NCBI GenBank assembly: GCA_030749275.1
Contig: JASMKJ010000068.1
Coordinates: 1 to 7,237, forward strand
Direction: 5' to 3'
Length of the DNA: 7,237 nucleotides
Source of the DNA: Acidimicrobiales bacterium
GTDB lineage: Bacteria; Actinomycetota; Acidimicrobiia; Acidimicrobiales; Poriferisodalaceae
Part shown: one piece after another, positions 1-7,237 of the stretch
How positions within the stretch are numbered: position 1 is the stretch's first letter
How the letters are laid out: each line of letters opens with the position of its first letter
The notes under the pieces: model-generated
What the model was told of the DNA's origin: nothing
The model's input: the letters and a program-made list of their open reading frames with translations, nothing else
Database searches by the model: none
Made by a program: the position numbers and the translations under genes

Positions 1-372
1 TTGTCCCCATCTGACGCCCACAGCGGGCGCCACATAGCGTTGTTTCCCAATGTGATGCGGACATTGCTTCCCAACCACGCATGCACCTTCATTCTCGAAC
101 CGACTCAAGCAGGACAAAGCCGCGAACACATAAGTTGGTCCACCCCTCACGAACCGGACAGCGAGGATTTGAAGAAACTGACCGATTTTTGGCTTCTGGT
201 GAACAATCAAGACATAGAGATCTGCGAAAAAGCCCAACGAGGAATCGATCGCGGACGATTCTCGGGGGGTCGCCTCTCACCGACCCTTGAAGAGCCTTTG
301 CATCGGTTCTACAACATGCTGGCCGACCGCTTCGAGGGCATTGACCGCTGCCCGGAAGGAGATAGGGAATAG
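1..372 (+). CDS. Rieske-type ring-hydroxylating oxygenase alpha subunit, C-terminal part (5' truncated by window edge)
   Basis: This is the last 123 codons of a Rieske non-heme iron oxygenase large subunit; the Rieske [2Fe-2S] domain and the 2-His part of the iron site lie upstream of the window, and the TTG at base 1 is probably an internal Leu. The visible part has the family's C-terminal signature: a strand with LFPN and LLPNHA (residues 14-27), then W64-L-L-V-N-N-Q-D71-I-E-I-C, a Q-R-G turn (79-81), an S-G-G-R-L-S-P segment (88-94) and a final helix with EEPLHRFYNMLADR (97-110). D71 is at the position where this family normally carries the carboxylate ligand of the mononuclear iron. Such enzymes hydroxylate aromatic rings or, in the choline/carnitine monooxygenase branch, quaternary amines, using electrons from a separate reductase not seen here. 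The family call is firm; the substrate is unknown. It is followed by a 63-nt gap and another oxygenase gene. Confidence 0.87.
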   Translation: MSPSDAHSGRHIALFPNVMRTLLPNHACTFILEPTQAGQSREHISWSTPHEPDSEDLKKLTDFWLLVNNQDIEICEKAQRGIDRGRFSGGRLSPTLEEPLHRFYNMLADRFEGIDRCPEGDRE

Positions 373-414
373 TCAGCGAACATGCACGTCCACCGCGCAA
401 TTGGTCTGACTATT
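368..414. repeat. 9-bp inverted repeat spanning the Rieske gene stop codon
   Basis: AATAGTCAG at 368-376 is matched perfectly by its reverse complement CTGACTATT at 406-414, with a 29-nt spacer. The TAG stop of the upstream gene (370-372) lies in the left arm. No T-run follows, so it does not look like a classical intrinsic terminator. It could be an RNA stem between two co-transcribed genes or a bipartite protein-binding site. The repeat is seen directly; the role is inferred. Confidence 0.45.
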
Positions 415-417
415 TGC

Positions 418-433
418 CGATAGCGTCCTATCG
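418..433. repeat. 6-bp stem / 4-nt loop hairpin just before the 2OG oxygenase start
   Basis: CGATAG (418-423), loop CGTC (424-427) and CTATCG (428-433) form a perfect short hairpin ending two bases before the ATG at 436. The same stretch lacks any purine-rich Shine-Dalgarno sequence, so the hairpin occupies the place where the ribosome would bind. A translation-modulating stem or a small operator are both possible. A 6-bp palindrome can also arise by chance. Confidence 0.4.
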
Positions 434-435
434 CA

Positions 436-1227
436 ATGAACTCGGGGTCCCACATCGACAAATGGATCGACCAGAAGCGCCATCCCATCGATGATGTCGG
501 GTATCGACGCGACCAAACAAAAAAATTCAACGCTGCGGGAGCTTTAGTCCTTGCAGGTTTCTTCACCGATGAGTTCGTCACCAGCGTTGTCGATCAGTCG
601 ACCCAACGAGAAGCAGACGCGTTCTTTGCTCACTCCACCCACAACGTGTACCTCACAGAACCAAGTCCAGATATGACCCAAGATCATCCTCTTAATCGGC
701 AGATACTGAGCAGTAAAGGTCTGATCGCCGATGACCAAATTCCCCAAGAGTCTCCTTTGCGGGACGTGTACGGAGACAGCGCCTTTCAGGACTTCCTTTG
801 TTCGCTGCTCAACGTCCGCAACATATTTCCGTACGACGACGATCTATCGTCGATCAATGTTCATTTCGCCCCAGAGGGACGTGAACTGGGTTGGCATTTC
901 GATAACTCCTCTTTCGCGGTCACAACGCTCCTACAAGCCCCCGAAGGCGGAGGAATATTCCAATATGTGCCGGACGTGCGAGATGCCGATAGCGGAGAGA
1001 TGGCTTTTGACAGAGTTGATGCCGTTTTGGATGAACACGAAGACCCTTCAGAGTTGAGTTTCCACCCCGGTGACCTGGTTCTATTTCGCGGACGAAATGC
1101 CCTGCATCGTGTGACACCAACGCGCGGTTCTGTGACCCGAATTCTCGCTGTGTTTGCTTACAACGATCAGCCAGGTATTGGCCTATCCACTTCAGCTCTC
1201 GAAACCTTTTATGGGCGAACAAACTAG
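436..1227 (+). CDS. 2-oxoglutarate/Fe(II)-dependent oxygenase, HalD/BesD/ArpA-like
   Basis: The 263-aa protein matches in length and motifs the double-stranded beta-helix 2OG oxygenases that include the BesD/HalD amino-acid halogenases and ArpA-like proteins. The iron facial triad reads H154-F-D156 (in LGWHFDNSSF) and H224 (in the segment from G219 to T227), with R235 in VTRILAVFAYND as likely 2-oxoglutarate carboxylate binder. The residue two after the first His is Asp, not the Gly of the halogenases, so hydroxylation, desaturation or another oxidation is predicted instead of halogenation. A PEGGGIF stretch (169-175) and SFHPGDLVLFRGR (208-220) are typical core strands. The start is fixed because an in-frame TAG lies at 421-423 and the next in-frame ATG is far inside. 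No Shine-Dalgarno is visible. It follows the Rieske gene by 63 nt, suggesting a common transcript and possibly successive oxidations of one compound. The fold is confident; the substrate is unknown. Confidence 0.85.
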   Translation: MNSGSHIDKWIDQKRHPIDDVGYRRDQTKKFNAAGALVLAGFFTDEFVTSVVDQSTQREADAFFAHSTHNVYLTEPSPDMTQDHPLNRQILSSKGLIADDQIPQESPLRDVYGDSAFQDFLCSLLNVRNIFPYDDDLSSINVHFAPEGRELGWHFDNSSFAVTTLLQAPEGGGIFQYVPDVRDADSGEMAFDRVDAVLDEHEDPSELSFHPGDLVLFRGRNALHRVTPTRGSVTRILAVFAYNDQPGIGLSTSALETFYGRTN

Positions 1228-1240
1228 AGCACCAAGAAAA

Positions 1241-1266
1241 GGTCACCCATACCAGCAACGGGTCAC
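1241..1266. promoter_or_regulatory. GGTCAC direct repeat with 20-bp period upstream of the reductase genes
   Basis: GGTCAC occurs at 1241-1246 and again at 1261-1266, so equivalent bases sit 20 bp apart, about two helical turns. A second near-repeat (AGCAACG 1254-1260, GGCAACG 1267-1273) overlaps it. Same-face spacing upstream of a gene start could be an activator site, but the repeat unit is short and the assignment is only suggestive. Confidence 0.25.
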
Positions 1267-1294
1267 GGCAACGAAATGGCCGACTGGGTAATAT

Positions 1295-1308
1295 CCTCGT
1301 TAACGAGG
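1295..1308. promoter_or_regulatory. Perfect 14-bp palindrome, candidate operator
   Basis: CCTCGTTAACGAGG is a gapless perfect palindrome in the 1228-1354 intergenic space, immediately followed by the overlapping palindrome GTACGTAC (1308-1315). A TAATAT (1289-1294) touching its left edge resembles a weak -10 box, although no good -35 is visible at the proper distance. A dimeric repressor bound here would cover a promoter for the downstream reductase, small-protein and synthetase genes. The palindrome is seen; the promoter and operator role is inferred. Confidence 0.45.
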
Positions 1309-1340
1309 TACGTACAAGTTGTGCGCCTGGAGGGGACACG

Positions 1341-1358
1341 ATGCGAGGGGATTCGTGA
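1341..1358 (+). other. Possible 5-codon leader ORF (MRGDS) with a strong Shine-Dalgarno
   Basis: GGAGGGG at 1329-1335 is the best ribosome-binding sequence in the window and sits at proper distance from the ATG at 1341. That ATG opens only five codons before TGA (1356-1358), and this stop overlaps the GTG at 1355 in the arrangement GTGA. The tiny ORF could deliver ribosomes to the reductase start by translational coupling. Alternatively, one additional G in the GGGG run at 1347-1350 would join ATG 1341 in frame to the reductase, so a base missing from the assembly is a real possibility. Confidence 0.3.
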
Positions 1359-2248
1359 CTGCGGTTGTAGGTGACGTTGAGGAAACCGAACCAGACAACC
1401 TCGAAGCCATAACAAACGCGATCAAACAAGTCGGTATCAACGCGGGGTCCACCCTTGTCGGAGTCGCAGCGGCGGATGCGTTTAACGAGTACGTCCCAGT
1501 GGGCCACCGCCCCGAAGATTTTCTTCCGGGAGCGCAAAGCGTTGTCGTCTGCGCGTCGCTAGGTCCAACAAATGCAGCATGGCAGAGTCCAAATAGGCGT
1601 CTGATGGAGATCACCGGCTATGACTTCAGAGAAAATGTGTCGTCGATTGTTGTCGCCGAGTACATCGAACGGACGCACGGCTATCTCGCGATGCAAGCGC
1701 CAGCACTACCGACCTCGGGTCAGCAGCCGCCTCTGAGCATGATGCTTGCCGCTGTTCTTGCAGGCCTTGGGACAAGATCCATTGCAGCGAACATCATCCT
1801 CAACCCCACATACGGGTTGATGTTCTTTGCCGCGGCAATAACAACGATGCGTCTCACTCCTGACCATCAACTCGAAGAGAATGTTTGTCCAGCCAGATCT
1901 TGTGTCCGCATGTACGAAATGGAAGGCAAGACACCCTGCATGGCGGTCTGCCCCGCTGACGAAGGTGGCTGTATCGACGCGACCATTGAGGACGGAGAGA
2001 TCACGAGCAGTTTCTTTGACCGGGAACGCTGCTCTACTCGAGCCATGAACTTTGGAATTCGTGGCCACATAAAGCAGGTCGAAATACTGACTGGGATCGA
2101 TGACGCAGATCAACGACGGGACCTGATTTACTCAGATGATTTCAGAAGAAACATGTCGTCTATTGGTCGATACAAAGAAAGTGTTTCTCAGTGCTTTGAG
2201 TGCATGCGGGTCTGCCCTGTGGGGCGTTATCGAAGAAAGTTGATGTAA
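1355..2248 (+). CDS. QueG/reductive-dehalogenase-like double [4Fe-4S] protein, first of a tandem pair
   Basis: The 297-aa protein (from GTG 1355) has a two-part layout: an N-terminal alpha/beta domain like the cobalamin-binding part of epoxyqueuosine reductase and reductive dehalogenases (LVGVAAADAF, a DFLPGAQSVVVCA strand, AGLGTRSIAANIILNPTYG at about 136-154), then a C-terminal ferredoxin-like domain. Nine cysteines lie at 178, 183, 195, 199, 206, 226, 280, 283 and 287, including TPCMAVCP and CFECMRVCPVG, enough for two [4Fe-4S] clusters. The pattern C-x4-C-x11-C-x3-CP departs from the compact C-x2-C-x2-C-x3-CP of QueG. The start is uncertain: GTG 1355 has GAGGGG (1345-1350) four bases upstream, while TTG 1319 in the same frame would add 12 residues that look unlike family sequence. 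The stop overlaps the next gene as TAATG. A redox enzyme using a corrinoid is inferred. True QueG is unlikely given the altered cysteines, the paralogue next door and the catabolic context. Confidence 0.75.
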   Translation: MTAVVGDVEETEPDNLEAITNAIKQVGINAGSTLVGVAAADAFNEYVPVGHRPEDFLPGAQSVVVCASLGPTNAAWQSPNRRLMEITGYDFRENVSSIVVAEYIERTHGYLAMQAPALPTSGQQPPLSMMLAAVLAGLGTRSIAANIILNPTYGLMFFAAAITTMRLTPDHQLEENVCPARSCVRMYEMEGKTPCMAVCPADEGGCIDATIEDGEITSSFFDRERCSTRAMNFGIRGHIKQVEILTGIDDADQRRDLIYSDDFRRNMSSIGRYKESVSQCFECMRVCPVGRYRRKLM

Positions 2249-3105
2249 TGGAAGAACTTGACTGGCTATCAATTAAGTCGGGTCTGTTGGATATGGCTCG
2301 TAAACGAGGCGCGGAGGTGGCACGGGTGGGTGACCCGGCGCTTCTCGAAGCGGCTGAACCCGGGCTTCGTCCTTCTGATTTACTCAAGGATGCGAAGTCC
2401 ATGATTGTTCTTGGCGGAGCGGCACCACGCGCAGCTGAATGGCAAAGCGATCGTGTCGAAGTTATGGAAACTACTGGCACAGCGGACCGCATGACTGCGT
2501 TGGGTAGCGCCGTGGCCCGACACATAGAAGAAACGTACGGCTATTACGCCATGAACGTTCCAACTGCGACAGATCAGGACGACAAAGCGTTTCTTGATTT
2601 CAAAGCTGCTGCTGTAGTCGCCGGAGCGGGTACCGCAAGCCTAGCTGGCCCGATTCTCGACCCGACCCACGGGTTCCTTTACCTGACTGTCATTCTCACA
2701 ACTCTGCCACTACCAGCCGACGGACCCCTTGAAGAAGCAGCGTGCCCAGCGCCTCAATGTGTTGACATGTGGGAAGAACAAGGAACAACTCCATGTATGG
2801 CTGTCTGCCCGATCGACGACGGCGGTTGCCTCGGCGGGGAAATAGAGCAGGGACTCATCATTAATAGACGATATGACGCTGAGCGATGCCGAGATCGGGT
2901 GTACCACTACTGGACCCCGGGTTACCAGGCCGCGCTCGAACGAGCCCTAGACGAACCTGATGCCCGAAAGCGAAAGATGATCCTGTACGGCAGCTTCTTT
3001 ACCCGAACCATGTGGTCGATCACCTATTCAGGAGTCAGTCAAGGTCAATGCTTTGAGTGCATTCGGGCCTGCCCGGTGGGGTCAAAAGAGCGAGCGCTTC
3101 AATGA
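2248..3105 (+). CDS. QueG/reductive-dehalogenase-like double [4Fe-4S] protein, second of a tandem pair
   Basis: The 285-aa protein is a clear paralogue of its upstream neighbour. The C-terminal halves align without gaps, and cysteines at 166, 171, 183, 187, 194, 214, 268, 271 and 275 have exactly the same spacings. Shared blocks include GAGTASLAGPILDPTHGF (126-143), a TTLPLPADGPLEE strand-loop (151-163), TPCMAVCP (181-188) with a following GGC, and CFECIRACPVG (268-278). The GxG-to-DPTHG region resembles the part of QueG and reductive dehalogenases that packs on the corrinoid. It retains acidic residues D111, D112 and D117 before this block, where QueG-type enzymes have their proton-donating Asp; the first copy does not. 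The start is taken at ATG 2248, overlapping the previous stop (TAATG). An in-frame ATG at 2200 only reads through the 3' end of the neighbour. No Tat or Sec signal is seen, so it is cytoplasmic. Physiological substrate unknown. Confidence 0.77.
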   Translation: MEELDWLSIKSGLLDMARKRGAEVARVGDPALLEAAEPGLRPSDLLKDAKSMIVLGGAAPRAAEWQSDRVEVMETTGTADRMTALGSAVARHIEETYGYYAMNVPTATDQDDKAFLDFKAAAVVAGAGTASLAGPILDPTHGFLYLTVILTTLPLPADGPLEEAACPAPQCVDMWEEQGTTPCMAVCPIDDGGCLGGEIEQGLIINRRYDAERCRDRVYHYWTPGYQAALERALDEPDARKRKMILYGSFFTRTMWSITYSGVSQGQCFECIRACPVGSKERALQ

Positions 3106-3458
3106 CCAAACCGACCGAACGCGGAGAGATCAACGGTTTCCATGTAGTGGACCCTGACCTGTATGAACGCTATCGAAAAGAAGTCGTAGCGTTGACGAAC
3201 TCCTACCAGGTTGACATCAACGAATTTCTTCCCGACGACGGATCGCGCAAACGTGGTTTGTCGGATGCCGAAATAGCTGAACGCTTAGGACTAGATATCC
3301 GTGATGTCACCGAAATTCGAGTTGTTGCGGAACACGACGAATATCCCATAGAAGAGTACGAAGCATCAGCTCGTTTCAAAGACGCGGCAGCGGAGTCGTA
3401 CTTCGAAGGTGGGGTCAAGAACTTGTACAAAGGTGACCCCCCACCCACGCGGAGATGA
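3102..3458 (+). CDS. Small hypothetical protein with possible helix-turn-helix
   Basis: I do not recognise this 118-aa family. The start at ATG 3102 overlaps the preceding TGA (ATGA), arguing for translational coupling with the reductase pair; an in-frame ATG at 3057 merely reads the end of that gene. Residues 53-72 (L53-S-D-A-E-I-A-E-R-L-G-L-D-I-R-D-V-T-E-I) resemble a sigma-70 region 4 or LuxR-type helix-turn-helix. This is followed by an acidic stretch (EHDEYPIEEYE, 77-87) and an amphipathic tail with ARFKDAAAESYFEGGVKNLYK (90-110). There are no cysteines, signal peptide or membrane segment. The protein is strongly acidic for a DNA binder, so a partner or assembly subunit of the adjacent reductases is as likely as a regulator. 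Its tight placement between reductase and CoA ligase genes shows that it belongs to the same unit. Confidence 0.72.
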   Translation: MTKPTERGEINGFHVVDPDLYERYRKEVVALTNSYQVDINEFLPDDGSRKRGLSDAEIAERLGLDIRDVTEIRVVAEHDEYPIEEYEASARFKDAAAESYFEGGVKNLYKGDPPPTRR

Positions 3459-3502
3459 CAATCACCTTCCTAGTTCCAACAAGAAATGGCCTTTGTCGAT
3501 GA
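3455..3502 (+). other. Possible 15-codon linker ORF between the small protein and the synthetase
   Basis: ATG at 3455 overlaps the preceding TGA (ATGA) and opens 15 codons (MTITFLVPTRNGLCR) ending in a TGA at 3500-3502 that overlaps the ATGATG start region of the synthetase. Both ends show the overlap geometry used for re-initiation, so it could carry ribosomes across a gap that lacks a good Shine-Dalgarno. The peptide itself need not be functional, and chance cannot be excluded. Confidence 0.2.
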
Positions 3503-5034
3503 TGCTCACGTTAGGGGAGGAGATGAGCCGCATCGGTCGCCACTACGGCAACCGAACAGCGGTCGTTGAGGGGTCACAGTCCCTTAGCTGGCGAGACTTC
3601 AGTTCCCGAATCTCCGTAGCCGCAGGAATGCTGCAAGAGCTAGGTGTCAATCCAGGTCAACGGGTCGCTATTTATGCACGTAACTCGGCGCTGTTCGATG
3701 AACTTAAGTGGGGAGCGTTCCACGCAGGGGTGGTCGCAGTACCGATCAACTGGCGATTAGCGCCTCCAGAAATAGCCCACATTCTGCAAGATTCGACCTG
3801 CGAAGCGATTTTCGTCGAAAACGACTTCATCGAGACTTTCAACTCCATCGAGCTGCTGCCCTGGCGCAACAAATTAATTAACCTCACAGGGTCACACGAC
3901 AATGAGCTGGACAGCTATGAGCAACTCTTCCACGCTGCCCAAGATGTCGATGTAGTAGAGGTATCCCCTGACGATGACGCTCTCATTTTATATACGGGTG
4001 GCACTACTGGACGAAGCAAAGGAGTGCGTCTAAGTCACTCCAACATCATTTCGTGTGCATCAGCGTTCACTTTGGCGACTCGAGGTCAACCCGACGACAC
4101 GTACTTACATTTAGCACCCATGTTCCACTCAGCTGACTTGTTGGCGACCGGCTGGATGCTGATCGGCGCAACCCACACCTACCTGCCGATGTTCTCCCCA
4201 GGAGGATTCCTGAACGCGATCAGCGATCAACAAGTCACCATGACTATCGCCGTACCAACCATGTTGATGATGACCCTCACAGATCCAGCAATGGAGTCCG
4301 CTGATACGCGGTCGCTTCGAATGATGGGATTCGGAGCGTCACCCATGGACCCAGCGTGGATAAGAAGAACAGCGGAGGGCTTCCCACACACGTTGCTGTT
4401 CAACTGTTACGGCCTCACCGAAACTTCCCCCGATCTGACCGTTTTCGATCCCGAAGAATTCCGGCAGGCAATTCAAGACGATTCTCCACTACTCGCTTCA
4501 GTAGGCCGACCGAACTGTCTTGTCGATCTCAAGGTGATTGACCTTGATGGGAACACGCTTCCCTCAGGGGAAACAGGAGTACTTCTGGCCAGAGGACCGA
4601 ATATCACCAAGGGTTACCTCAATCTGCCTGAGGAAACCGCCGCTGCATTGCAGAACGGATGGCTACGCACAGGCGACATCGCGCGAATCGACGAAGACGG
4701 ATACGTGTACCTCGTGGACCGAGAAAAAGACCTCATCATCACTGGCGGCGAAAATGTCTATTCGTCAGAGGTAGAAACAGCGCTGTATCAACATCCAGAC
4801 ATTCATGAATGCGCAGTCATCGGAATCCCCGACGAACGCTTAGGTCAACTTGTCACCGCTGTCATTGTTGCAAAGCCCGAAACAGCTCTCGAAGCTGAAG
4901 CAGTCATCGACCACTGTCGTGGGCTGATCGGTGGATACAAAGTGCCCCGCCGCGTCGAGTTCGCCGAAGCGATGCCCAAAAACGAGTTGGGCAAAATCTT
5001 GAAGAACCGGTTACGCGAAAACTACGCCTCGTGA
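3499..5034 (+). CDS. AMP-forming acyl-CoA synthetase (ANL superfamily)
   Basis: The 511-aa enzyme activates a carboxylic acid with ATP to an acyl-adenylate and transfers it to CoA. All core motifs are intact, numbered from ATG 3499: the phosphate-binding loop YTGGTTGRSKG (165-175), YGLTE (304-308), TGD (391-393), the hinge D407-R-E-K-D411, GGENVYSSEVE (416-426) and the C-terminal PKNELGK with the catalytic lysine at K499. Length is normal for the medium/long-chain and aryl-acid ligase group. An upstream in-frame ATG at 3409 would overlap the previous gene and add 30 residues unlike the family. ATG 3502 or ATG 3523 (just after GGGGAGG, but with very short spacing) are alternatives. It closes the packed block that begins at the reductases and probably feeds their product, or the pathway substrate, into CoA-thioester metabolism. 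Substrate specificity cannot be assigned. Confidence 0.93.
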   Translation: MMLTLGEEMSRIGRHYGNRTAVVEGSQSLSWRDFSSRISVAAGMLQELGVNPGQRVAIYARNSALFDELKWGAFHAGVVAVPINWRLAPPEIAHILQDSTCEAIFVENDFIETFNSIELLPWRNKLINLTGSHDNELDSYEQLFHAAQDVDVVEVSPDDDALILYTGGTTGRSKGVRLSHSNIISCASAFTLATRGQPDDTYLHLAPMFHSADLLATGWMLIGATHTYLPMFSPGGFLNAISDQQVTMTIAVPTMLMMTLTDPAMESADTRSLRMMGFGASPMDPAWIRRTAEGFPHTLLFNCYGLTETSPDLTVFDPEEFRQAIQDDSPLLASVGRPNCLVDLKVIDLDGNTLPSGETGVLLARGPNITKGYLNLPEETAAALQNGWLRTGDIARIDEDGYVYLVDREKDLIITGGENVYSSEVETALYQHPDIHECAVIGIPDERLGQLVTAVIVAKPETALEAEAVIDHCRGLIGGYKVPRRVEFAEAMPKNELGKILKNRLRENYAS

Positions 5035-5065
5035 ACGACCAAGCAATCTCGCGTAGTTTGGGTTT

Positions 5066-7003
5066 ATGAGATTTCGCATAGGGTTCGCTGCTGTTTTGTT
5101 GTTTTTGTCGGCTTGTGGTGGGGGAGAGTCGACCACAAGCACACCGACCACGTCTGGGTCCGTTGCTTCGGAAACCACTAGTGCTCCGGTGCCGACGACG
5201 TCAACAACTGCGGCCCCACCCGTCACCACTGCCCCAGCGGCACCCACGACCACGCAAGCTCCGGCAACCCAAACAGCAACTGACACCAATAAGGGATCTG
5301 TTGACCTTGTTGTGTCCCCAGATGGACAATTTGCCGCAACCGTGTCTGAACCAGGTCGGTGGACTTTAAATGTTGAGGGACAAGGCTGGGCCGGTGCTCC
5401 CGTTTTCGTTCTGGTCTGCACAGCAAATGATTTAGCCACGCTGGCTCGAACCGGTCTGGCTACCTGTGACCTCTCAAACTTCCAAATGGGTATGCCATCA
5501 GGAGGTGACTTCAGTTTAAGTTTTGAATTAAACGTCCCTGAACAGGGAATCTGTATCGGAGCAGGTGACCAAGGCCAAGCCGAAACCGGCGGAGCCTGCA
5601 TTTCAATCGGAGCGGCTAACTCAGCTACGCCCACCACGACCACGCCTCAAGCAGTACCCATAGCGTGCGCCTCAGCGACCGCCCCGCTTGCCTACACAGC
5701 TACAGCCGACGGGACTGAAGTTGTCTGGGAGTTCGAAGAAGAACCTGAGTTGTCCAAGATGTACCTACGGACCCGACCGTCCGGTGTCAGCTCGGACGAC
5801 CACAGAAACCACCACAACGGCGGCTTCGGATTGCTGTGGTATCAGCAAGTCGAGGTGCCAATATCCAACAATGGTTCTTATCAAGCCGAACTTCCAAGTT
5901 TGCAAGGACCCAGAGCAACGGTCGACGTCGACCTAGTCACCGTTCATGCAGGTGGTACCGAGTGTGAGTCGCGAATGTTTTCGGACTTCGAATATCCGCC
6001 CTTGACTAGTGCCCAGCAGAACCTGTCGATCCCCGACGGAATAACAGTCGATGTCAGTCGTTATACCGACCTAGAGGTCCCCGCTCCAACAGTTGAGGCT
6101 TTGGTTCACGCCTTCGCGTCCTACAACGGTCGACACATCAGCGGGGCCGAGGAACCCGACTACTCGGTATGGAAAATTGAGGACAACAAAACCATTCGTG
6201 ACTACTCGCCGAAGCTTCGGTACTTCCTCTTCGGAAGCGAGATAGAAATTGGAAATTGGTGGGCGGTAGCACAAATGATGGAACTGATCGCAGCAGTAGC
6301 ACCGCACTTAGACCCCCGGTTCGCAACTTCGATAGACGAAGTGAATTTCCCGGAATTTTTGCCGCTATGTGAACCATGGATGATCGTCGGAGTGGAACCT
6401 CACGGTCGCCAAAGCAAGCTCCAGCAACCATGCCAACGAGATGGCAACGGCGCCTACTTCAGCGACGGCACCGCCAGAAGCGGAGCGGGCAACCCGAATT
6501 ATTCAAAGTCACGAGGCTTCACCTACCACAACAAATTTGTTATCGAACAGAGCGACATGAACCGATCTGACCTCGGATGGGTACGCAACATGACCGTCGG
6601 CCAAGAAATCAACAATCCCTGCTGCACGATCAATTTTCATGAGACAGGGCACGCGTTAGGCGTAGATCACAACGCGTGCGGACACAGTTCCATGTCGTTT
6701 TGGGAGGCTCCAAACACGTCCTACACGACCAAGCCTTGGAACGAAGACGACCTTGCCGGTATGGCAATTCACTTGGACCCAAGAACTACCCACGGAATGA
6801 GCATTGAGGAAGCCGCTTCGGCTCTCGGAATACCCAAAGATGCCCGCTACCAAGAACTGGTTGAAAAACCTTGGAGAGCGTGCGGCAACCAGGATCCAGG
6901 CTGGGACGCCTTCGCAGAGCGACTCTACGAGCTTCACATTTCGACTGAAGGAGTCGAGACGAACCATCCGACCAACCGCGACAAAGTCACCTGGAGCTAC
7001 TGA
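5066..7003 (+). CDS. Secreted lipoprotein with metzincin-type zinc metalloprotease domain
   Basis: The 645-aa protein starts with a short basic N-terminus, a hydrophobic core and the lipobox L14-S-A-C17, so it is predicted to be lipid-anchored outside the membrane. Residues 21-75 are a Thr/Ser/Pro/Ala-rich spacer. Residues 76-183 form a probable beta-sandwich with four cysteines (118, 134, 163, 178), recalling the two-disulfide layout of neocarzinostatin-like domains. A second Thr/Pro linker spans 187-198. The C-terminal part contains H525-E-T-G-H529-A-L-G-V-D-H535, the metzincin zinc motif HExxHxxGxxH, with a Met-turn candidate at M543 (SSMSF) and a DDLAGMAIHL helix (561-570) like matrixins. 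C519-C520 just before the motif and C538 just after it may form structural disulfides. It starts 31 nt after the synthetase stop with no clear Shine-Dalgarno, so co-transcription is possible, but its function looks unrelated. Protein substrate unknown. Confidence 0.88.
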   Translation: MRFRIGFAAVLLFLSACGGGESTTSTPTTSGSVASETTSAPVPTTSTTAAPPVTTAPAAPTTTQAPATQTATDTNKGSVDLVVSPDGQFAATVSEPGRWTLNVEGQGWAGAPVFVLVCTANDLATLARTGLATCDLSNFQMGMPSGGDFSLSFELNVPEQGICIGAGDQGQAETGGACISIGAANSATPTTTTPQAVPIACASATAPLAYTATADGTEVVWEFEEEPELSKMYLRTRPSGVSSDDHRNHHNGGFGLLWYQQVEVPISNNGSYQAELPSLQGPRATVDVDLVTVHAGGTECESRMFSDFEYPPLTSAQQNLSIPDGITVDVSRYTDLEVPAPTVEALVHAFASYNGRHISGAEEPDYSVWKIEDNKTIRDYSPKLRYFLFGSEIEIGNWWAVAQMMELIAAVAPHLDPRFATSIDEVNFPEFLPLCEPWMIVGVEPHGRQSKLQQPCQRDGNGAYFSDGTARSGAGNPNYSKSRGFTYHNKFVIEQSDMNRSDLGWVRNMTVGQEINNPCCTINFHETGHALGVDHNACGHSSMSFWEAPNTSYTTKPWNEDDLAGMAIHLDPRTTHGMSIEEAASALGIPKDARYQELVEKPWRACGNQDPGWDAFAERLYELHISTEGVETNHPTNRDKVTWSY

Positions 7004-7120
7004 ACCAATTATCTAGGCGCGCAACCCGCCATGACCCGCGCAACACCGACTCGGATTACTTTGATCTGAATATTTGCTGTTCGCCCTCGATACCTAGCAG
7101 ACACATAGACGCGACCTAGC
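7004..7120. other. Convergent intergenic region
   Basis: This 117-nt spacer separates the ends of the protease gene and the CoA-transferase gene. It holds two short direct repeats: CGCGCAAC at 7018-7025 and 7037-7044, and ACCTAGC at 7092-7098 and 7114-7120. GCGCG (7017-7021) could pair weakly with CGCGC (7037-7041). I see no stem followed by a T-run on either strand, so no terminator is called, and no gene is visible. Confidence 0.5.
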
Positions 7121-7237
7121 TCACACCGTTACGCCTTCCTGGCGTAACTCGCTGAGCTCTTGTTTTTCCAGACCCAGCAGTTCCGACAGCACCTCATCGG
7201 TATGTTGCCCGAACATTGGAGCAGGTCGAGCGGCACC
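7121..7237 (-). CDS. CaiB/BaiF family CoA transferase, C-terminal end (truncated by window edge)
   Basis: Reading the minus strand from 7237 gives an open frame of 38 codons ending in TGA at 7123-7121. The residues GAARPAPMFGQHTDEVLSEL followed by LGL, a short charged helix and a terminal EGV match the C-terminal tail of family III CoA transferases, where P-x-x-G-x-H/x-T-D-E-V-L-x-E-L-L-G is highly characteristic. These enzymes move CoA between acyl groups, for example succinyl or butyrobetainyl. The rest of the gene lies beyond the window. It is convergent to the other genes, so it is not in their operon, but it adds to the CoA-ester character of the locus. The fragment is short, yet the signature is strong. 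Confidence 0.8.
   Translation of the reverse strand, partial: GAARPAPMFGQHTDEVLSELLGLEKQELSELRQEGVTV

Follow-up and report, generated by a model that had tools for sequence, protein, structure and literature searches.

What does a bacterium do with two adjacent copies of a protein that resembles both QueG and the reductive dehalogenases (RdhA)? The question is posed by a 7,237-nucleotide stretch of Acidimicrobiales bacterium DNA (GCA_030749275.1, contig JASMKJ010000068.1, positions 1 to 7,237; hereafter the window), in which gene A (1355..2248, GTG start, 297 residues), encoding a QueG/RdhA-type protein, is followed by its paralogue, gene B (2248..3105, 285 residues); features lie on the plus strand unless stated otherwise. 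QueG and the reductive dehalogenases form a B12/[4Fe-4S] class of which more families may exist, without a motif by which to search for them (PMC4646009, 2015). The A-B family is a concrete candidate for such a further family: it is widespread, nearly always paired, and over no Pfam or NCBIfam cut-off.

The two proteins share nine cysteines, at residues 178, 183, 195, 199, 206, 226, 280, 283 and 287 of A (first to last codon, 1886..2215) and 166, 171, 183, 187, 194, 214, 268, 271 and 275 of B (2743..3072). The spacings (4, 11, 3, 6, 19, 53, 2 and 3) are the same in both, as the initial annotation had reported along with the overlap of the A stop and the B start as TAATG. This agreement is not due to chance, since A and B are homologous (41% identity over 255 residues, E 2e-58); A has one more cysteine, Cys66, outside the conserved set. 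Across the family, the cysteines of the pattern are conserved, and the spacing is less strict than first described. Among the 240 best homologues (the best 120 of 294 and the best 120 of 620), the nine columns contain Cys or a gap throughout, with Cys in 117-120 of 120 B-type and 119-120 of 120 A-type sequences per column, while the full spacing including x19 is found in 114/120 B-type and only 52/120 A-type sequences, x20 replacing x19 in 61 of the latter. In 67 locus pairs, all nine columns are Cys in every A and in 66 or 67 of the B proteins (one X, one S and one gap).

In S. thermophilus, QueG ligates its distal cluster through C184, C187, C190 and C243 and its proximal cluster through C194, C210, C236 and C239, as described in PMC4646009. 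Because the C-x3-CP and C-x2-C-x3-CP parts match in A and B, the natural counterparts of these ligands would be C178, C183, C195 and C287, and C199, C226, C280 and C283, of A. By order and spacing, all eight counterparts needed for two [4Fe-4S] clusters are present, and both clusters are predicted to form. The initial proposal of a different cluster ligation thus finds no support, as eight of the nine cysteines align with the two-cluster ligands given for QueG in that paper. Judged by sequence, the difference from the QueG set is a stretched loop holding the first three cysteines (C-x4-C-x11-C-x3-CP-x5-C vs the compact C-x2-C-x2-C-x3-CP) and one extra cysteine, Cys206 in A (1970-1972) and Cys194 in B (2827-2829). 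In deep members of the family the extra cysteine follows at x2 instead of x6 in A of L074 and in A and B of L087, and at x3 in L096-L098; L095 has none.

Both proteins retain a conserved nitroreductase-like, cobalamin-type domain and a ferredoxin module, as in class III B12/[4Fe-4S] enzymes, and both end 10 residues past the last cysteine, with no C-terminal HEAT-repeat domain. Profile comparison places gene A near QueG (hhalign probability 95.7%), and a PDB sequence search returned only QueG chains, at E 0.07-0.2. Matches to the QueG and RdhA families are weak, and A and B fall under every curated Pfam and NCBIfam cut-off. With 13.5 bits (A) and 21.8 bits (B) against a cut-off of 200 for TIGR00276, a separate QueG in the same genome scoring 232.5 bits and an own QueG in 38 of the 41 genomes searched, ordinary QueG was rejected. 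RdhA proper was rejected by its TIGR02486 cut-off (17.7 and 23.1 vs 160.35) and by the tree; a Pfam scan of A and B gave no PF13486 match. A careful tree without L095 sets the family on its own branch apart from QueG and RdhA, with A as one clade (100/100) and B as two, which bears out the initial suggestion of a distinct subfamily. In a quick tree including the long row L095, A instead forms two groups and B one. Structure prediction, proposed at the outset for each protein, succeeded in part: B is predicted to have a QueG/RdhA-like fold, and the model of A is poor (pLDDT 65.6) and too weak for a structure search.

The catalytic region also departs from that of QueG. QueG has D100-Y101-H102, whose Tyr is equivalent to RdhA Tyr246 (PMC4646009). 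At less than 25% identity, and with actinobacterial QueG rows that are themselves not DYH, this motif aligns to D90-F91-R92 of A (1622..1630; profile alignment to 5d08), where the middle residue is F or L among members, and to A79-D80-R81 of B (2482..2490; sequence alignment), where it is D, E or Q elsewhere. Given these replacements, the chemistry is likely not identical to that of QueG or RdhA. A and B resemble QueG in the predicted fold of B, the eight-cysteine two-cluster ferredoxin pattern and the N-terminal cobalamin-type domain, but differ in the stretched loop, the ninth cysteine, the replaced DYH, the missing HEAT domain, the tandem arrangement and the CoA ligase neighbors. With RdhA they share the fold class and ties to organohalogen genes, and RdhA genes lie beside the family and occur in the same genomes; they differ from it in scores far under the cut-off, the missing PF13486 match, a Tyr region that a distant alignment suggests is not retained, and the separate branch.

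A scan of named genomes yielded 78 loci (from the best 80 of 102 relatives), which with the window make 79: 75 A-B loci and four single-gene sister loci (L095-L098). Gene A lies directly upstream of B in 71 of the 72 testable loci (L053, L084 and L094 were left out because B is at a contig end); in L093 one gene stands between them. Whole genomes agree, the family occurring in 10 of 61 relatives of the window and 6 of 53 genomes of a gammaproteobacterial order, always as two adjacent copies. Distances among A proteins correlate with those among B proteins (r 0.94 over 67 loci, 0.86 over 24 dereplicated ones), with 0 of 2000 permutations as high. The homologues are not ordinary single-copy QueG and the pair is rarely separated, and the pairing in 71/72 loci makes the hetero-oligomeric enzyme envisaged by the initial annotation likely, as a predicted complex. 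By record titles, A-B loci span at least six phyla, with Acidimicrobiia (Actinomycetota), Gamma- and Alphaproteobacteria, Burkholderiales, Acidobacteria, Rokubacteria, Tectomicrobia and Planctomycetes; Chloroflexi are named for a sister. Isolate names suggest that many of the hosts are bins from sponges, the sea, soil or groundwater. A search of a plasmid collection at E 1e-5 gave no match to plasmid-borne copies. In L052 (9974-10837), B is split into two frames by a frameshift or sequencing error.

A third gene belongs to the unit. Gene C (3102..3458, 118 residues), missed by the initial annotation, begins with an ATG that overlaps the B stop (ATGA) and contains a helix-turn-helix-like stretch (weak Pfam matches under cut-off). 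It is a kept partner, directly following B in 70 of 75 A-B loci; of the exceptions, three loci stop at this point (L081, L082 and L093), L044 lacks C, and in L087 C lies 3.3 kb further on. In the window C is followed by an acyl-CoA ligase gene (3499..5034; AMP-binding and AMP-binding_C, PF00501 268.6 bits), whose start was set by analogy with L024, the longest frame opening at 3409. Of the 75 A-B loci, 36 have such a ligase no more than 700 bp from the unit, as do 14 of the 24 dereplicated loci; the flanks of these loci, 892 kb in all, contain 10 others, of which about 3 would be expected near the unit. In sister systems the C domain is itself an N-terminal fusion on an acyl-CoA ligase (L097 and L098, with a short form in L096), and in L095 C is encoded on its own downstream of the single reductase. 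A protein database search found 176 proteins matching the C-type extension, with PF00501 in all of the 120 listed, under length limits that would hide free-standing C proteins. In two rokubacterial loci (L074 and L085), a divergent CoA ligase and then branched-chain-type ABC (ATP-binding cassette) transporter genes, recognized by eye, lie upstream of A; the transporter would fit acid uptake.

Reductive dehalogenase genes also occur beside the family. In L034, an RdhA gene (177.2 bits vs 160.35; PF13486 33.9 vs 24.3) precedes A, B, C and the ligase. Eight of 13 sister loci have RdhA upstream of, and in the same orientation as, the sister gene. Six of these are close relatives (L098, L167, L168, L189, L190 and L191) with a ligase between the two genes, L098 being a tight four-gene run and L167 having a 1.4-kb gap; in L170, RdhA stands 2.6 kb upstream, separated from the sister gene by a ligase match, and in L171 the two genes are adjacent. 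RdhA was not seen at L096/L173 or L097/L174, nor within 4.8 kb at L095; L169 and L172 are cut, as are further copies outside the 13 (L149 and L152), and the GC-rich L168-L170 and L174 were read by similarity to named seeds. The co-occurrence extends to whole genomes, assessed with Fisher tests uncorrected for kinship: RdhA-type matches are present in 6/6 pair-positive vs 9/47 pair-negative genomes of the gammaproteobacterial order, in 8/10 vs 15/51 relatives of the window (E <1e-30), and in 2/2 vs 0/3 genomes of its genus. In L024, the ligase is followed by a gene that scores 379.8 bits (cut-off 265) against NF002043, a haloalkane dehalogenase model, and in Pfam matches general alpha/beta-hydrolase families only; L025 and L026 have homologues at the same place. 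The initial remark that oxygenases plus a CoA ligase match no known pathway had overlooked gene C, the C-CoA-ligase fusions and these reductive dehalogenase genes.

From the observed gene order, cysteines, tree and neighbors, together with the predicted fold of B, we infer a cofactor, a complex, a role for C, a substrate and a reaction. It is quite possible, if short of probable, that A-B is a heterodimeric cobalamin/[4Fe-4S] reductase that, with C and the CoA ligase, strips a substituent, probably a halogen, off acids, probably aromatic ones, that have first been activated with CoA. Loading of the acid onto CoA would be the task of the ligase. Two [4Fe-4S] clusters are expected in each subunit, of which the proximal cluster (C199, C226, C280 and C283 in A) would pass electrons to base-off cobalamin, a binding mode for which no sequence motif exists (PMC4646009, Discussion), in the nitroreductase-like domain. 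The heterodimer would use these clusters to make cob(I)alamin and would free the acyl-CoA of its leaving group, most likely halogen. The fusion of C to a ligase in sister systems suggests an accessory or docking function for C. With D-F-R in A and A-D-R in B, one subunit might be catalytic and the other supporting, or both might contribute to a single site. Reductive dehalogenation of 3-chlorobenzoyl-CoA by Rhodopseudomonas palustris, tabulated in PMC6100074, is the same type of reaction, likened here by reaction and not by sequence.

Several observations weigh against this reductase. RdhA is upstream in only 1 of 75 A-B loci (L034), two pair-positive genomes of genus g7 lack it, and it is carried by the 15 pair-negative relatives counted above, and by pair-negative G019 and G029 beside pair-positive kin. 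Pair-positive genomes of the gammaproteobacterial order tend to be larger, so that genome size as well as kinship confounds the co-occurrence. The ligase is absent within 700 bp in 39 of 75 loci, including all 16 acidobacterial loci that bear BoxB; five of the 39 stop less than 700 bp past C. The Tyr common to QueG and RdhA (Tyr246 of PceA) aligns, distantly and with a poor model of A, to Phe in A and Asp in B, and the cofactor, the A-B complex and its activity are all predictions.

A wider claim, which we regard as doubtful, is that A-B-C and the CoA ligase make up, within the class III B12 enzymes, a third family, namely a heterodimeric reductive dehalogenase specific for CoA thioesters, with C for docking and an A-B site tuned by the ninth cysteine, found in sea water, sponges, soil and groundwater across at least six phyla.

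The same type of enzyme could instead act on a non-halogen leaving group, as a reductive deoxygenase (hydroxyl or epoxide) or a ring or double-bond reductase of acyl-CoA thioesters in aromatic catabolism; we consider this unlikely, while giving it some weight. In 16 acidobacterial loci BoxB (benzoyl-CoA epoxidase) is found at 3-9 kb from C, accompanied in 13 by BoxC, both over their cut-offs in L058, a weak hint that these enzymes of the benzoyl-CoA epoxide route are pathway partners. The Box genes, however, are on the other strand and confined to acidobacterial loci, and may reflect synteny. Rieske oxygenase genes adjoin the module, QueG itself removes an epoxide oxygen (PMC4646009), and an RdhA next door would make a second dehalogenase unneeded; the RdhA and haloalkane dehalogenase links nevertheless point to halogens.

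A and B might also be a cobamide-handling or reactivating pair, resembling CblC/CblD with added iron-sulfur (Fe-S) clusters, that reduces B12 or hands it to RdhA or corrinoid proteins. CblC/MMACHC and CblD/MMADHC appear as fold matches, share the nitroreductase-like fold, and by the title of PDB 9mrs were crystallized as a complex, and RdhA genes lie upstream of the family. In L096/L173 (8198-19504), moreover, what looks like a corrinoid methyl-transfer system comes after the sister reductase on the same strand; it comprises an MtaA-like methyltransferase (under cut-off), a B12-binding protein, URO-D, MTHFR, a pterin-binding protein and an AcsV-like activator. This role is nonetheless improbable. 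The commonest neighbor besides C is a CoA ligase and no B12 enzyme, C is fused to the ligase in sister systems, RdhA stands beside a single A-B locus, and the L096 run has an activator of its own (377.9 bits, under the 800 cut-off). As described in PMC4646009, CblC has no Fe-S module, unlike A and B, which both carry the two-cluster cysteine set.

We hold it quite improbable that A and B are Fe-S electron carriers without B12, feeding neighboring oxygenases or RdhA. The two-cluster cysteines would suit carriers, B12 binding by A and B is a prediction, and oxygenases are at hand: Rieske and 2-oxoglutarate enzymes in Acidimicrobiia, and in 16 acidobacterial loci (L054, L056, L058-L060, L062-L070, L079 and L086) a luciferase-like monooxygenase soon after C on either strand. 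Against this, the entire nitroreductase-like cobalamin domain is kept and conserved, and outside Acidimicrobiia the Rieske seeds match near the unit in six A-B loci only, all proteobacterial. A duplicated QueG acting on tRNA is scarcely credible despite the weak QueG matches and a pair-positive relative (G013, 91% complete) without its own QueG, being contradicted for the window's genome by the separate QueG and countered by the missing HEAT domain, the DYH lost by alignment, and the neighborhoods, where no queuosine genes were recognized by eye in 19 loci and the tRNA-synthetase-like genes of acidobacterial loci are on the opposite strand.

A-B represents, as far as its sequences tell, a known fold class with a new branch and a new architecture. 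A literature search of titles and abstracts, with bioRxiv and most subscription papers outside its coverage, found no description of the family. T7RdhA of a marine Acidimicrobiaceae is described as a PceA-like RdhA (PMC10008544). The third gene and the ligase indicate the type of substrate to try. If acyl-CoA dehalogenation is true, A-B would be a third branch of the B12 enzyme class beside QueG and RdhA, would put genes to reductive dehalogenation that depends on CoA, and would offer a new way into organohalogen turnover in the sea, sponges and soil. Aerobic coryneforms reportedly carry out NADPH-dependent dehalogenation of 2,4-dichlorobenzoyl-CoA, in a 1996 report on which the literature search found nothing.

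Upstream of A, the window encodes a Rieske oxygenase alpha subunit cut down to its C-terminal part by the contig end (1..372; PF00848 72.5 bits), longer copies of which occupy the same place in L022, L024-L026 and L028, and a HalD/WelO5-type 2-oxoglutarate/Fe(II) oxygenase (436..1227; PF23169 55.6 bits, cut-off 26), also found upstream of A in L021-L026 and L028. In Acidimicrobiia the latter sits between the Rieske oxygenase and A. Halogenases generally have Gly in place of the Asp of the H-F-D motif. H-F-D is kept in the window's oxygenase and in all seven relatives inspected, which makes a hydroxylase the more likely assignment.

Downstream of the ligase, 5066-7003 encodes a predicted secreted protein with a Thr/Pro-rich N-terminus and, by eye, a metzincin-like HETGHALGVDH motif; a Pfam scan at E 0.001 gave no match. 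On the minus strand, 7121-7237 is apparently the C-terminal end of a CoA-transferase family III (CaiB) gene, identified by eye and from a complete gene at the same place in L022 (365.7 bits). Elsewhere in the window's genome, on contig C307 (L192), a 781-residue frame with a reductive dehalogenase match adjoins a CaiB-like gene, and five genomes of the gammaproteobacterial order (G079, G095, G097, G131 and G132) carry six to eight RdhA-type matches each.
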